Of a stretch of DNA of 27,304 nucleotides, positions 22,225 through 27,304 are shown in pieces. The stretch is from positions 1-27,304 of the IMG/VR virus record IMGVR_UViG_3300044701_005775; one strand, 5' to 3'. The notes below the pieces were generated by a model, which had not been told where the DNA came from, did not search any database, and was given only the letters and a program-made list of their open reading frames with translations. Position 1 is the stretch's first letter; each line of letters starts with the position of its first letter. This DNA comes from a virus. Both the position numbers and the translations under genes were made by a program.

Positions 22225-22280
22225 AAAACCCCGTCTTCTTCATCTGCCTTCCCCGGCAGGTGGGGAGGGCGGGGTTTTTT
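22225..22280 (+). terminator. Strong intrinsic terminator closing the late operon
   Basis: AAAACCCCG (22225-22233) pairs with CGGGGTTTTTT (22270-22280), and an inner stem of CCTTCCCC (22247-22254) with GGGGAGGG (22262-22269, one G-U) closes around GGCAGGT. A run of six T follows directly. This is the clearest terminator in the window and separates the lysis genes from the RfaH-like gene. Confidence 0.88.
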
Positions 22281-22362
22281 GTCGTTTGTGGGGTGCGTTT
22301 CATGGTGGGCATTTCTGCAGCATTGACTTGGCTTTGAGGGAGAACAGCGCCTTCATACGAGC

Positions 22363-23319
22363 ATGCAGAACAAAGACGCCAAGCCCAACAACCACTTCTC
22401 CCAAGGTCTCACTGCCGCCCAAGTCGCCGACCGGATGGGACTGACCACCCGCCAACTGCAAGACCTGCGGCTGCGTGGCATCGGGCCACCAATCGTGCAG
22501 CGTGGGCTGTCAATCCACTACGAACTGGCCGATGTAATGGAAATCGAGCGCCACGAGGCGATGGCGATCCTGGAGCAGGTGCTCGCTAGCGACCGGCCGT
22601 TGACCTTGCTGCGTGCAATGGCGGACCATCGCGGTTTCAAGCTCTCACCCATCCTGCAGCAGGTCAGTGTGACCACGTCATCCAAAGCGACGGAACCAAT
22701 CCCGGCCCCTGAAAGCCCGAAGCTACTCGAATTGGCCGAGTCGGCAAGGGATGTGTTCGCTCCTGTACCACCACCAGAGCCGCCGCCGGCCATCTCGCCA
22801 GCATTGACCGTCATCACGTCCCCGACCACCGCCTGGTACCTCGTCCACACCAAGCCCCGCCAGGAAGACGTCGCCCTGGCCAATCTGCAGCGCCAAGGCT
22901 ATGAGTGCTATTTGCCGCTAATGCGCATCGAACGCATCCGCCGGCGCAAGGCGGAAGTTGCCACCGAGCCGATGTTCCCGCGCTACCTGTTCATCCAGCT
23001 GGACAGCAGCGACCAGGGCAAAAGCTGGTCTCCGATTCGCTCCACCTTGGGCGTGAGCCAGATGGTGCATTTCGGGGCTCGGGCAGCCAAGGTCGATGAC
23101 GCCCTGGTCGATCTGCTGCGCCAACGCGAGCAGGCCATGCCAGTGGACGCCATGTTCCACAGCGGCGACTCGGTGGTCATCACAGACGGCCCTTTTGCCG
23201 GCATCGAGGCGATCTACCAGACAGCGGACGCCGACCGCCGCGCTTTCATCTTGCTTGAAATCCTGTCCAAATCCGTGTCGATGCAGATCGACGCCAGGCG
23301 TCTGCGCAAGGCCGGCTGA
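22363..23319 (+). CDS. HTH-RfaH/NusG fusion, transcription elongation regulator
   Basis: The 318-residue protein has two parts. Residues 16-62 form an excisionase/MerR-like HTH (LTAAQVADRMGLTTRQLQDLRLRG, with the IGPPIVQRGLSIHYELADVMEIE ending). A Pro/Ala-rich linker (about 105-155) leads to an RfaH-type NGN domain at about 157-258, with AWYLVHTKPRQEDVALANLQRQGYECYLP, EPMFPRYLFIQLD and the LGVSQMVHFG motif. A KOW domain follows at 266-318 (SGDSVVITDGPFAGIEAIYQTADADRRAFILLEILSKS). The NGN and KOW halves match RfaH in order, spacing and motifs. RfaH-type factors ride RNA polymerase and suppress termination in long operons that carry ops sites. No clear ops site is seen. The ATG at 22363 has a weak SD. 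Confidence 0.85.
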   Translation: MQNKDAKPNNHFSQGLTAAQVADRMGLTTRQLQDLRLRGIGPPIVQRGLSIHYELADVMEIERHEAMAILEQVLASDRPLTLLRAMADHRGFKLSPILQQVSVTTSSKATEPIPAPESPKLLELAESARDVFAPVPPPEPPPAISPALTVITSPTTAWYLVHTKPRQEDVALANLQRQGYECYLPLMRIERIRRRKAEVATEPMFPRYLFIQLDSSDQGKSWSPIRSTLGVSQMVHFGARAAKVDDALVDLLRQREQAMPVDAMFHSGDSVVITDGPFAGIEAIYQTADADRRAFILLEILSKSVSMQIDARRLRKAG

Positions 23320-23406
23320 CCCGTCGGCGACCACCGTCGCTTTCTTCGCCTTTATTCCTTCTTTCTGCCCCGAACGCCTTGATACGTCTTGGCCTTCGAA
23401 GCAAAC

Positions 23407-25017
23407 ATGGCTCAAACGAATGAGCGCAGAAAGAACATGGCCACAGCATCCGAACCTATTGCCGAACCACCGGCAACCCAAGAATCCACACCCGCCTTCC
23501 GCGCCGCCCAGTACGTGCGCATGTCCACCGAGCATCAGCAGTACTCCACGCACAACCAGGCGGACAAGATCCAGGAATACGCCGAGCGGCGCAACATCCA
23601 GATCGTCCGCACCTACGCTGATGAGGGCAAAAGCGGTCTGTCCATCGATGGCCGCGCGTCCCTGCAACGCCTAATCGCCGATGTTGAATCCGGCAACACC
23701 GACTTCAACCTGATTCTGGTCTACGACGTAAGCCGCTGGGGGCGGTTTCAGGACGCGGACGAGTCGGCGTATTACGAGTACATCTGCAAGCGCAAGAACA
23801 TCCACGTCGCCTACGTAGCCGAGCAGTTTGAAAATGACGGCTCCCCCGTCTCCACCATCGTCAAAGGCGTCAAACGCGCCATGGCCGGGGAGTACAGCCG
23901 GGAACTCTCGGCCAAGGTCTTCGCTGGCCAATGCCGGCTGATCGAACTGGGCTTTCGCCAAGGCGGCCCCGCCGGCTTTGGCCTGCGCCGGGTGCTGATT
24001 GACCAGACAGGCGCCGTCAAAGGCGAGCTCAAGCGCGGCGAGCACAAAAGCCTGCAAACCGACCGGGTCATCCTGATGCCAGGCCCCGACTTTGAAGTGG
24101 CCACCGTCAACCAGATCTACCGCTGGCTGGTGAAAGACGATCTGCCCATTGCCGAGATCGTCAAACGCCTGAACGACCAGCCCATTTACACTGATCTGGA
24201 CCGCCCCTGGACCTACAGCACGGTCCGCCAAGTGCTGACCAACGAGAAGTACATCGGCAACAACGTCTACAACCGCCACTCCTTCAAGCTCAAGAAGAAG
24301 CATGTCGACAACCCGCCCGAGATGTGGATCCGCAAGGAAGGGGCGTTTGATGGCATCGTGCCAGTGGCCACCTTTATTGCCGCCCAGGAAATCCTGGCCG
24401 AGCGCAGCAAGAAGCTGACCGACGCCGAACTGCTCGACCACCTCAAGGCCCTGTACGCCGAATGCGGGCGCCTGTCGGGCTTCATCATCGACCAGGCCCC
24501 AGCGCTGCCCAGTGCCGCCACCTACATCCAGCGCTTTGGCAGCCTGACCCGGGCGTATGAACTGGTGGGCTACCACTGCCCGCGCAGCACCGAGTTCCTG
24601 GAAATCAACCGCCGCCTGCGCCAACTCCACCCCGAAATCGTCAGCCGCACTGAGCACACCATCGCCGAACTGGGCGGCCACATCACCCGAGATCCCAAGA
24701 CCGATCTGCTCACGCTCAACGACGAACTGGTCATCAGCCTGGTGCTGGCCCGCTGCCAGACGGCGGCCAACGGCCACCAGCGCTGGCGCATCCGGTTCGA
24801 TCCGGCCAAGTTCGACCCCGACATCACCGTCGCCATCCGGCTGGACGCTGCCAACACCCAAGAGCTGGACTACTACCTGCTGCCCCGGCTGGATCTGCCC
24901 GATCAGGAAATCCGCGTCAGCAACAAGAACAGCGCCGACTTCGAGTGCTTTCGCTTTGACGACCTGAACTTCTTCTATGGCATGTCGGAGCGAGAGCGGC
25001 TGCAGCGCCGTGTCTGA
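23407..25017 (+). CDS. Large serine recombinase, atypical C-terminus
   Basis: The 536-residue protein is a large serine recombinase (resolvase N-terminal domain plus a recombinase domain). The catalytic nucleophile is Ser40 in YVRMSTEHQ, with Arg38 close by. The LVYDVSRWGR segment (Asp107, Ser109, Arg110) is the second catalytic motif. The recombinase domain follows with AGFGLRR...PIAEIVKRLNDQPIYTD...TVRQVLTNEKYIGNNVYNR. The usual Cys4 zinc ribbon seems absent. Instead, residues 346-390 contain ECGRLSGFIIDQAPALPSAATYIQRFGSLTRAYELVGY, a homing-endonuclease-associated-repeat-like segment. It probably integrates or excises the element carrying it. ATG 23407 was chosen; ATG 23437 is also possible. 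Neither has a strong SD. Confidence 0.9.
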   Translation: MAQTNERRKNMATASEPIAEPPATQESTPAFRAAQYVRMSTEHQQYSTHNQADKIQEYAERRNIQIVRTYADEGKSGLSIDGRASLQRLIADVESGNTDFNLILVYDVSRWGRFQDADESAYYEYICKRKNIHVAYVAEQFENDGSPVSTIVKGVKRAMAGEYSRELSAKVFAGQCRLIELGFRQGGPAGFGLRRVLIDQTGAVKGELKRGEHKSLQTDRVILMPGPDFEVATVNQIYRWLVKDDLPIAEIVKRLNDQPIYTDLDRPWTYSTVRQVLTNEKYIGNNVYNRHSFKLKKKHVDNPPEMWIRKEGAFDGIVPVATFIAAQEILAERSKKLTDAELLDHLKALYAECGRLSGFIIDQAPALPSAATYIQRFGSLTRAYELVGYHCPRSTEFLEINRRLRQLHPEIVSRTEHTIAELGGHITRDPKTDLLTLNDELVISLVLARCQTAANGHQRWRIRFDPAKFDPDITVAIRLDAANTQELDYYLLPRLDLPDQEIRVSNKNSADFECFRFDDLNFFYGMSERERLQRRV

Positions 25018-25056: not shown

Positions 25057-25104
25057 ATGAACCCGAGTCCAACCCGCACGTACGAAAACAGGAGGCAAAC
25101 ATGA
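25057..25104 (+). CDS. Leader mini-ORF coupled to first ParB gene
   Basis: An ATG at 25057 has a good SD (AAGGA, 25043-25047) and encodes the 15-residue peptide MNPSPTRTYENRRQT. Its TGA (25102-25104) overlaps the ATG (25101) of the ParB-like gene in an ATGATG arrangement. The codons AGG AGG in the mini-ORF form the SD of the ParB gene. Translation of the leader would therefore cover the downstream SD and could couple or modulate ParB expression. Conservation cannot be tested here. Confidence 0.4.
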   Translation: MNPSPTRTYENRRQT

Positions 25105-26066
25105 TGACCGGCACCCCCGACACCGTCACGCTCGTCCCCATCAACCGGATCGAGATCCTCAACTCCCGCGACCGCAACATGAAGGTCTTTGAGGAGATCG
25201 TGGACAACATCCGCGCCATCGGCCTCAAAAAACCCATCACCGTGGCCGAACGCCCCGGTGACGATGGCGACCCGCGCTACGTGCTGGTCTGCGGCGAGGG
25301 GCGACTCAACGCCTTCCGCATCCTGGGCGAAAGCCACATCCCCGCCCTGGTGGTGGACGTGAGCGATGAAGACGCCTTCATCATGAGCCTGGCCGAGAAC
25401 ATCGCCCGGCGCGGCTACCGCCCGCTGGAGATCCTGGCCGACATCGAGGTGCTGAGGAAACGTGGCTACAGCGCCGAGATCATCATCCAGAAGACGGGCC
25501 TGTCGCCCAAGTACGTCAAAGACATCGTCTTCCTGCTCGACCAGGGAGAGGAGCGCCTGATCGAGGGCGTGCAGCGCGGCACCATCCCGCTGACCACGGC
25601 CCTGGAAATCGCCCGGGCCAACGAGAACGCCAGCACCACAGTGGAAGATGGCCAAGCCAATCTGGGCGACCTGCTGCAAGAGGCCTACGAAAACGGCCAG
25701 CTTAAAGGTCGCCAGATCATCGAAGCCAAGCGCCTGATCGAAAAGCGCCTGGAGCACGGTCCCGCATCCCCCAATCGCGACCAGATCAAACCACCCACCT
25801 CCAGCTACAGCCTGGTGCGCACCTACCAGCGCGAGGTGGAACGCCAGCGCAAGATGGTGCTGAAAGCTGAGCACGCCCACCAACGGCTGCTGCTGGTGGT
25901 ACAGGGCCTCAAAAAGCTGTTTGCCGACGAGCACTTTGTGAACCTGCTGCGCGCCGAAGCCCTGGACACCCTGCCCAAGTACCTGGCGGAGCGGATCAAC
26001 ACTCTGGGCGGCGCCACCAACCCGATGATACCGACCACCCCCGAACCCGAAGGAGTTACGACATGA
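25101..26066 (+). CDS. ParB/RepB-like partition protein, first copy
   Basis: The 321-residue protein has a ParB N-terminal domain with GLKKPITV (41-48), the Arg-box variant GEGRLNAF (65-72; canonical GERRxxA) and AENIARRGYRPLE (98-110). A helix-turn-helix follows at about 116-145 (LRKRGYSAEIIIQKTGLSPKYVKDIVFLL). The C-terminal half is helical and highly charged, and lacks an obvious ParB dimerisation motif; it may belong to the RepB C-terminal group. In ParB proteins the N-domain binds CTP and the HTH binds parS. No parA gene or parS site is seen nearby. A strong AGGAGG precedes the ATG. The gene overlaps the leader mini-ORF upstream and the second ParB gene downstream. Confidence 0.88.
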   Translation: MMTGTPDTVTLVPINRIEILNSRDRNMKVFEEIVDNIRAIGLKKPITVAERPGDDGDPRYVLVCGEGRLNAFRILGESHIPALVVDVSDEDAFIMSLAENIARRGYRPLEILADIEVLRKRGYSAEIIIQKTGLSPKYVKDIVFLLDQGEERLIEGVQRGTIPLTTALEIARANENASTTVEDGQANLGDLLQEAYENGQLKGRQIIEAKRLIEKRLEHGPASPNRDQIKPPTSSYSLVRTYQREVERQRKMVLKAEHAHQRLLLVVQGLKKLFADEHFVNLLRAEALDTLPKYLAERINTLGGATNPMIPTTPEPEGVTT

Positions 26067-26896
26067 ACCTGGCCATGAACCCTATGCAGACGAACCCACG
26101 CAACAACCTCACCGAGATGTACCCCGGCATCTACCAACCCGGCCATGGTGACGACCACCACGACGGTCCGAACTTGCCGACCGCGCCTCTCAATACGCTG
26201 CTGGGCTTCGAGCTGGAGACCTACCAGGTGCCGCTGGACCAGCTGCTGCCCAGCAAGAAGGTGCCCGACGGCGTGATGAGTACACGCAAGTACAAGCAGA
26301 TCGTCTCCAGCATAAACGAGGTGGGGCTGATCGAACCGCTGTCCGTCATCCAGCCCGACCGCAAGAAACCTGAGTACCTGGTGCTCGACGGCCACCTGCG
26401 CGTCCTGGCCCTCAAAGAGCTGGGCATGAGCGTCGGCCCCTGCCTGTTCGCAAAAGACGACGAAACCTTCAGTTACAACCACCACATCAACCGGCTGTCG
26501 ACCATCGCCGAGCACTACATGATCCGCCGCGCCATCGACCGTGGCGTGAGCAAGGAGCGGTTGGCCCGGGCGTTCAACGTCAACTTGAGCTCTATCAACC
26601 GGCGCATCAACCTGCTCGAAGGCATCTGCCCCGAGGCCATCACTCTGCTGCAGGACAAGCAGTTCACGCCGGATGTCACCCGCATCCTGCGCAACATGAA
26701 GGCCGCCCGCCAAGTGGAAGCGGTGGAGCTGATGATCGCCAGCAACACCATCACCGTGGCGCATGCCGAGGCCCTGCTCAAGGCCACACCAACGGAGCAG
26801 CGTACCGACGTCAAGCCCGCCGAGCGGGAGAAGAAGACCGCGCCCATCGAGCAGATCGAAAAGCTGGAAAAGGAAATGATAAGCGTAGTGAATTAA
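26063..26896 (+). CDS. ParB/RepB-like partition protein, second copy
   Basis: The 277-residue protein overlaps the first ParB gene by ATGA and has its own SD (AAGGAG 26050-26055). A probably disordered 45-residue N-terminus is followed by a ParB-type domain: VPLDQLLPSKK..., KYKQIVSSINEVGLIEPLSVIQPD, and LDGHLRVLALKELG. The last is a diverged version of the Arg box, without the GERR signature. A helix-turn-helix occurs in AEHYMIRRAIDRGVSKERLARAFNVNLSSINRRINLLEGI. The tail (about 200-277) is helical and lysine/glutamate rich. The protein is only distantly similar to its neighbour, so the two may form a heteromeric pair. No ParA partner lies in the window. Confidence 0.88.
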   Translation: MNLAMNPMQTNPRNNLTEMYPGIYQPGHGDDHHDGPNLPTAPLNTLLGFELETYQVPLDQLLPSKKVPDGVMSTRKYKQIVSSINEVGLIEPLSVIQPDRKKPEYLVLDGHLRVLALKELGMSVGPCLFAKDDETFSYNHHINRLSTIAEHYMIRRAIDRGVSKERLARAFNVNLSSINRRINLLEGICPEAITLLQDKQFTPDVTRILRNMKAARQVEAVELMIASNTITVAHAEALLKATPTEQRTDVKPAEREKKTAPIEQIEKLEKEMISVVN

Positions 26897-26925
26897 TTGA
26901 CATTTACATAGACGCCCGCTAACCT
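26897..26925 (+). promoter_or_regulatory. Candidate sigma-70 promoter downstream of the ParB genes
   Basis: A perfect -35 TTGACA (26897-26902) is followed by a 17-nt spacer and a weak -10 TAACCT (26920-26925). It begins directly after the second ParB stop. The -10 match is only three of six, so strength depends on an activator or is low. Transcription would start near 26932, just before the hairpin. Confidence 0.45.
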
Positions 26926-26938
26926 CTGCCTCAGTTGT

Positions 26939-26971
26939 CGAGTAGCCGTCTTTCTTTGAAAGACGAGTAGC
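26939..26971 (+). repeat. Hairpin flanked by CGAGTAGC direct repeats
   Basis: CGTCTTTC (26947-26954) and GAAAGACG (26958-26965) form an 8-bp inverted repeat with a TTT loop. Two copies of CGAGTAGC flank it (26939-26946 and 26964-26971), overlapping the right arm. The block lies 13-45 bp downstream of the -10, so it is placed to be an operator, an mRNA structure or a recombinase/partition site. Which one cannot be decided from sequence. Confidence 0.5.
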
Positions 26972-26994
26972 GGGGTGGGGGTCTGGGGGAGGGG
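26972..26994 (+). promoter_or_regulatory. G-quadruplex motif overlapping the ribosome binding site
   Basis: Four G runs of 4-5 bases are separated by loops of T, TCT and A (G4-T-G5-TCT-G5-A-G4). The last two runs contain the SD GGAGG (26988-26992) of the next gene, whose ATG is at 26999. Folding of the mRNA here would hide the SD. Confidence 0.55.
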
Positions 26995-26998
26995 CGCC

Positions 26999-27304
26999 AT
27001 GCGACGGCAGGCTGTGGATAACTTGGAGTTGAACCGGTGGCGTTCCATGTCGGCCACTTCGGTGTTGGCCTCGCCGCTGTGTGAGCACGCCAAACTGGAC
27101 CCCACCTTCCGTCCGATCCAGAGTCAGGAGACCCGACGTTGGCACGTCACGGTCGGCGGGCATGTCTTCGAATTGCTTTGCACTGGCCCCAAATTCTTTG
27201 ACACGCGCGTCAAAAAGGGCGGTGGCGGGGCAGTCGACTTGGTGATGCACCTGCACGGGGTGGACTTCAAAGGCGCAGTGCGGTTGCTGCGGCAAGGGCT
27301 ATGA
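26999..27304 (+). CDS. Small protein with primase/CHC2-like fold signature
   Basis: The 101-residue protein has an N-terminus of unclear character (about 1-45) followed by WHVTVGGHVFELLCTGPKFFDTRVKKGGGGAVDLVMHLHGVDFKGAVRLLRQ. The pattern of a beta pair, GGGGAVDLVMHL and a helix ending FKGAVRLL resembles the DnaG/CHC2-type zinc-binding domain found at the start of primase- and relaxase-associated proteins (compare the G-GGDxxxF...PEAL region of primases). The Cys/His zinc ligands of CHC2 domains are not present in the usual places, so zinc binding is doubtful. The stop TGA overlaps an ATG at 27301, so the next gene probably begins there and the pair may be one functional unit. ATG 26999 has an SD 6 nt upstream. 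Confidence 0.55.
   Translation: MRRQAVDNLELNRWRSMSATSVLASPLCEHAKLDPTFRPIQSQETRRWHVTVGGHVFELLCTGPKFFDTRVKKGGGGAVDLVMHLHGVDFKGAVRLLRQGL
27013..27021 (-). promoter_or_regulatory. DnaA-box 9-mer
   Basis: TGTGGATAA on the plus strand is TTATCCACA on the minus strand, a perfect match to the strong DnaA-box consensus. It lies within the first codons of the last gene, just beyond the repeat/G-quadruplex block. A single copy can arise by chance, so its significance depends on whether an origin is nearby. Confidence 0.35.

Follow-up and report, generated by a model that had tools for sequence, protein, structure and literature searches.

Among the specialised NusG paralogues, recruitment is understood in detail only for RfaH of E. 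coli (PMC7593976). This protein (TIGR01955; PDB 5OND, 2OUG) is a standalone NGN-KOW factor of 162 aa that is encoded apart from its targets, long glycan operons preceded by the ops element GGCGGTAGCGTG. Four of its residues, K10, H20, R23 and R73, make direct contacts with ops (PMC5995543), and ops-contact residues are also given in PMC2871177. Wang et al. found that many RfaH clusters adjoin envelope genes and that one cluster is associated with the gene of an HTH regulator, as a neighbour and not as a fusion (PMC7593976). The specialised antiterminators UpxY, LoaP and TaA are encoded within or beside their target operons, as is probably the protein described here. A search of the open literature yielded no RfaH or NusG paralogue fused to an HTH.

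The window, i.e. the whole stretch of DNA analyzed, comprises positions 1 to 27,304 (27,304 nt) of virus record IMGVR_UViG_3300044701_005775. It harbors a gene in which an HTH is joined to an RfaH-type protein:

22363-23319, plus strand: coding sequence of the HTH-RfaH fusion, 318 aa, with an architecture common to 25 full-length proteins
22402-22647, plus strand: winged HTH of the HTH_17/excisionase/MerR type, approximately residues 14-95, assigned by homologue profiles, predicted fold and pN/pS
22666-22824, plus strand: Pro/Ala-rich, fast-evolving disordered linker, residues 102-154, assigned by pLDDT below 50 and by pN/pS
22831-23130, plus strand: NGN domain, residues 157-256, assigned by profile matches and PDB alignment
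23152-23316, plus strand: KOW or C-terminal RfaH domain, residues 264-318, aligned to the RfaH CTD structures 2lcl and 6tf4

The ORF starts with ATG, and no start codon is located further 5' in the open frame. The first-pass annotation had assigned RfaH-type NGN and KOW domains to the C-terminal half, and this was confirmed. TIGR01955 matched residues 158-312 with an E value of 4e-49 and 166.6 bits, above its equivalog cut-off of 144.5 bits, which was exceeded in all three branches of the family (170.7 bits in L003, 157.1 bits in L057). The NusG (NGN) Pfam profile matched with an E value of 1.6e-22, E. coli RfaH PDB entries were aligned by phmmer at residues 157-317, and PHROG 6386 (transcription antiterminator) was matched as well. 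The profiles of UpxY (63 bits, cut-off 100) and LoaP (43.8 bits, cut-off 125) scored far below their family cut-offs. The NGN-KOW core is 35-40% identical to E. coli RfaH, and alignment to the latter shows that E48 is kept in the fusion family, along with F51 and Y54. In RfaH, E48 is known to form a salt bridge with R138. The two proteins differ in the added HTH and linker, in the location of the fusion gene beside a glycan cluster and in the HTT motif (65-67), which is replaced by SWS or SWT. Due to this replacement and the fused HTH, the protein was not filed as a strict orthologue of E. coli RfaH; judged by its sequence, it is an RfaH-type paralogue.

Recognition of the N-terminal HTH by Pfam is weak in the window protein (HTH_17, E 0.04-0.08, below the cut-off). 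Among the homologues, HTH_17 was matched in 9 of 19 members with a best E value of 1.2e-6, and L003 passes the Pfam cut-off of 27 with 27.8 bits. AlphaFold2 modelling of the HTH alone, with 26 relatives as input, gave a confident fold (mean pLDDT 86) composed of helix-helix-wing-long helix-helix. The nearest structure is the GIsul2 excisionase (Z 8.7, rmsd 1.5, 56 residues), followed by Rpp (Z 7.6), the RdfS excisionase (Z 7.3) and further by BldC, Pukovnik Xis and MerR proteins; SoxR shares the fold too, and terminase small subunits use it, as do the MerR and BldC regulators. Homologue matches and predicted fold thus agree with the excisionase/MerR-type HTH and Pro-rich linker described in the first pass, but not with the length of 62 residues given there for the HTH, as the folded domain covers approximately residues 14-95 and the linker residues 102-154. 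In contrast to the excisionase and MerR proteins, the HTH is joined here to an elongation factor and has no tyrosine integrase as partner. The model of the full-length protein was poor (pLDDT 58), with an unstructured linker at approximately residues 102-153 (pLDDT below 50) and a CTD and domain placement too weak to read. No target site of the HTH was identified.

The low Pfam score in the window protein, together with the standalone relatives L005 and L006, which work as short RfaH ORFs without an HTH, could be taken to mean that the HTH is a leftover without function, or that the ORF was called too far 5', and that a functional protein begins near residue 147. A start near residue 150 had also been considered in the first pass. 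However, the HTH is conserved in all three branches, with pN/pS values of 0.12-0.25 in three separate groups that indicate purifying selection. In its alignment 20 columns are invariant, among them columns of the recognition helix and the wing, and its fold is predicted with confidence, so that the probability of a leftover is practically negligible. Across the three groups, pN/pS was 0.10-0.14 for NGN, 0.11-0.14 for KOW and 0.42-0.74 for the linker (0.56 in group 1).

The search for further proteins of the same two-domain architecture, which had been suggested along with structure prediction, was successful. The 25 full-length proteins fall into three branches with approximately 60% NGN-KOW identity to each other and originate from genomes of Comamonadaceae/Burkholderiales and from many IMG/VR contigs. 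The fusion is rare; of 399 genomes sampled from the order, 2 contain it, and the phage and plasmid collections searched contained standalone RfaHs only and no full-length fusion. In the phylogenetic tree three standalone proteins (L005, L006 and that of Diaphorobacter) are placed among the fusions. A single origin of the fusion was not rejected (p-AU 0.26), and the three standalone proteins have perhaps lost the HTH. The sequences thus show the two-domain HTH-RfaH protein to be an old, conserved family.

The fusion gene is located between phage genes and a recombinase-ParB module:

177-22198, plus strand: morphogenesis and lysis genes of a lambda-like siphophage, from terminase to TipJ-type tail protein and holin
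22229-22274, plus strand: intrinsic terminator between the phage late/lysis genes and the fusion, with a 20-pair stem and a T tract
23389-25017, plus strand: large serine recombinase with Resolvase and Recombinase domains (Pfam)
25101-26066, plus strand: ParB/RepB-like protein 1
26063-26896, plus strand: ParB/RepB-like protein 2, shortened to 277 aa compared with 344-359 aa in most relatives

The phage late genes of the window encode terminase, portal, capsid E, tape measure, TipJ and holin. Late genes with a holin are positioned directly 5' of the fusion in many contigs, which, like the match to PHROG 6386, would suit an antiterminator of the prophage with phage operons as its targets, in late-gene expression or lysogenic conversion. 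However, the strong terminator, which is kept in group 1 relatives, separates the late genes from the fusion, and a canonical ops leader was not found in the phage part of the window. Moreover, the phage side varies: the DNA 5' of the same downstream module comes from phages of two unrelated types and, in one case, from a phage remnant. The stable partner of the fusion is therefore the recombinase-glycan module, and a role in phage transcription is very unlikely.

Genes with a radical-SAM-like CX3CX2C motif (e.g. LGLSCNYECEYCSQRF) were observed among the tail genes of the bordering phages in L032/L033, L035, L039-L041 and L044/L045. The Bal53 prophage harbors three successive recombinase-like genes near its terminase end (L030/L031/L098 side, 2.8-6.0 kb of the reversed context), which by eye are tyrosine recombinases.

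On the other side, wherever the DNA 3' of the fusion could be read, the gene directly following it is almost always the serine recombinase, and most relatives with longer DNA retain the order fusion-recombinase-ParB1-ParB2; in G218 the ParB frames were not recognisable in the ORF call. The position between this recombinase and phage genes, and the RdfS and GIsul2 excisionases among the fold neighbours, are compatible with a bifunctional regulator linked to mobility, whose HTH would be an excisionase or directionality factor for the serine recombinase or the phage and whose RfaH half would control expression. However, the serine recombinase-ParB-ParB cassette is common in other Burkholderiales, where it carries other cargo and no HTH-RfaH fusion. 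The same fold also occurs in MerR and BldC regulators and in terminase small subunits, and no attachment sites were established. A function of the HTH in recombination is thus unlikely.

The cargo of the cassettes L121-L136 is by eye often restriction- or helicase-like, and these cassettes are usually located 3' of a gene for a small zinc-finger-like protein. The serine recombinase of the window (23389-25017) shows a sub-threshold match to HNH_repeat, which is homing-endonuclease-associated, at residues 344-395. The ORF at 26975-27304, which follows the short ParB2, has no match in Pfam, NCBIfam or PHROG.

In the relatives, the recombinase-ParB module runs into a glycan biosynthesis cluster with the same direction as the fusion. 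The first gene of this cluster is mostly MarR_EPS (TIGR04176, E 1e-47), and its content includes Pfams of ManC, GMD, Fcl-type epimerase, Ugd and fucosyltransferase as well as glycosyltransferases and others. Glycan genes are also located between fusion and recombinase, namely a GT2 and a Nudix gene in L015 and GalU in L013. Directly 5' of the glycan cluster, the canonical E. coli-type ops GGCGGTAGCGTG is part of a conserved leader of approximately 40 nt (cgcgcttgccgatcgtgacacggcat-ops). Leader and ops precede MarR_EPS or Ugd in Bal53, Hainich, JRMC, G013, G009, G218, G400, L008, L009 and L086, and nearly every relative with readable downstream sequence has the canonical ops; E1MAG harbors a variant only (TGCGGTAGCCTG). 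A scan of nine genomes detected the exact 12-mer with the leader before MarR_EPS or Ugd at 7-8 places (G002, G003, G004 twice, G218, G400 and G006 twice) and one more leader copy in G218:C8, where no gene was called, and the remaining exact 12-mer matches, none of which has the leader, appear to be chance occurrences. A search of the window, L002 and L008 against Rfam gave no match, and in the extended inverted repeat around ops two-sided compensatory change was not seen. The window stops short of glycan cluster and ops, both of which are assigned to this record on the basis of its relatives; an insertion or junction at 26063-27304 would explain their absence. The fusion gene is a phage-bordering gene of freshwater Burkholderiales that heads surface-sugar gene clusters.

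These findings favor, with a probability of about 0.6, that the fusion is an ops-recruited RfaH-type antiterminator of the adjacent surface-glycan operon, which has gained a winged HTH of the excisionase/MerR type. In the relatives the gene heads a co-directional run consisting of HTH-RfaH, serine recombinase, ParB, ParB, a second RfaH in one branch and the glycan cluster. By analogy to E. coli RfaH, the NGN-KOW part would load onto RNA polymerase paused at the ops of the glycan leader and exclude NusG and Rho, which would allow the polymerase to read through the cluster of 15-20 genes. The HTH, attached by a flexible linker of approximately 50 residues, might bind nearby double-stranded DNA, most likely the promoter region of its own gene, and such binding might result in autoregulation and keep RfaH concentrated around the locus. 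Thus, the extra domain most likely supplements recruitment by ops and does not replace it. A tentative extension is that two DNA readouts deliver this RfaH paralogue, the HTH at a promoter-near duplex site and the NGN at the single-stranded ops hairpin, and that antitermination is thereby limited to the gene's own element.

The residues of the ops patch were compared with those of E. coli RfaH. The fusions share K10, R23, Q24 and T72 with this protein, whereas H20 is an asparagine in most fusions and a histidine in three members of branch 3, R73 is replaced by leucine, valine or isoleucine, and the HTT motif differs as described above. Standalone beta-proteobacterial RfaHs (L008, G218, G400 and Diaphorobacter plasmid pDCB1), whose NGN-KOW is 49-69% identical to that of the fusion, lack the HTH but share its ops-patch substitutions, with lysine, leucine, isoleucine or valine at position 73, and its glycan context. 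As the same changes occur in these standalone relatives, the fusion is not singled out by them. Given this and the canonical ops in the leaders of the relatives, the proposal of the first-pass annotation that recruitment takes place by another route than ops is not supported.

That proposal corresponds to an antiterminator tethered to a promoter or another DNA site, in which the HTH brings RfaH to the polymerase at initiation or early elongation and ops is not needed. Antiterminators of the lambda Q type, which are loaded from a DNA site, offer an analogy; the protein is unrelated, and the likeness lies in the concept of a factor that binds DNA and from there reaches RNA polymerase. Tethering would be consistent with the changes at H20 and R73, with the reach provided by a long flexible linker and with a conserved element that directly precedes the start codon:

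22323-22362, plus strand: conserved promoter-like element TTGACTTGGCTT-N10-ACAGCGCCTTCAT, directly 5' of the start codon

In each of the three branches the start codon is preceded by this element in a 40-bp form (CTTGRCTT-N8-ANCAGMGCSTKMAT), and the third-branch fusion L057 was recovered by a search with the element alone. A consensus sigma-70 -10 was not found in it. The element was also detected 5' of standalone HTH_17 genes in E1MAG, G022 and G237, and a wider scan placed it 5' of genes that encode no HTH, namely DUF2924-recombinase and small phage genes. It is therefore not an HTH-specific operator, and its candidacy as the HTH's own operator was dropped. As the glycan leader has a conserved canonical ops and the ops-patch changes are common to standalone RfaHs, recruitment by tethering in place of ops is not very likely, and an ops-recruited antiterminator with a supplementary HTH is the preferred reading.

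In Bal53 (G002), the only other RfaH/NusG-like match shows 37% identity and is located on a different contig; this genome therefore has no RfaH of the fusion's lineage other than the fusion itself. In branch 3 (G218, G400) a second, standalone RfaH is encoded just 5' of the glycan cluster next to ops, and the fusion may do another job there. The standalone gene is positioned between ParB2 and ops in G218, G400 and L008, and in the Rhodocyclaceae L008/L009 it is the only RfaH at that spot. Distant RfaH-like genes of the same genomes could be the users of ops instead. An RfaH that has its own duplex-DNA-binding domain and a conserved ops a few kb away is a natural system for separating DNA tethering from recruitment by ops, and the branch whose cluster also encodes a standalone paralogue adds to this use. 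The packaging of ops-controlled glycan clusters with a recombinase-ParB cassette, bordered by prophages, bears on the joint movement of surface antigens and phages in freshwater bacteria. In L088-L091 (G218, G400) the HTH-fused and the standalone RfaH are located approximately 4 kb apart and flank the recombinase-ParB module.

The promoter-like element was treated as belonging to Burkholderiales mobile elements. Other assignments were rejected: read as the beginning of an antisense gene (MKALF...) it would open frames of only 13-45 codons in most loci, and as a phage att repeat its copies at the two ends of the G400 prophage are only partly alike. The motif TTCAT-NNNN-GCATG at the gene start, seen by eye in three branches, was considered as a fusion-specific operator and is too short to claim. 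A form of 31-40 bp, CTTGGCTT-N8-AACAGCGCSTSAAT, is repeated in Burkholderiales mobile elements before small phage, HTH_17 and DUF2924-recombinase genes, with copies at positions 94-55 of the window (minus strand) and in L099/L029-L031 (Bal53), L090 (G400), L092 (G237) and L097 (G022).
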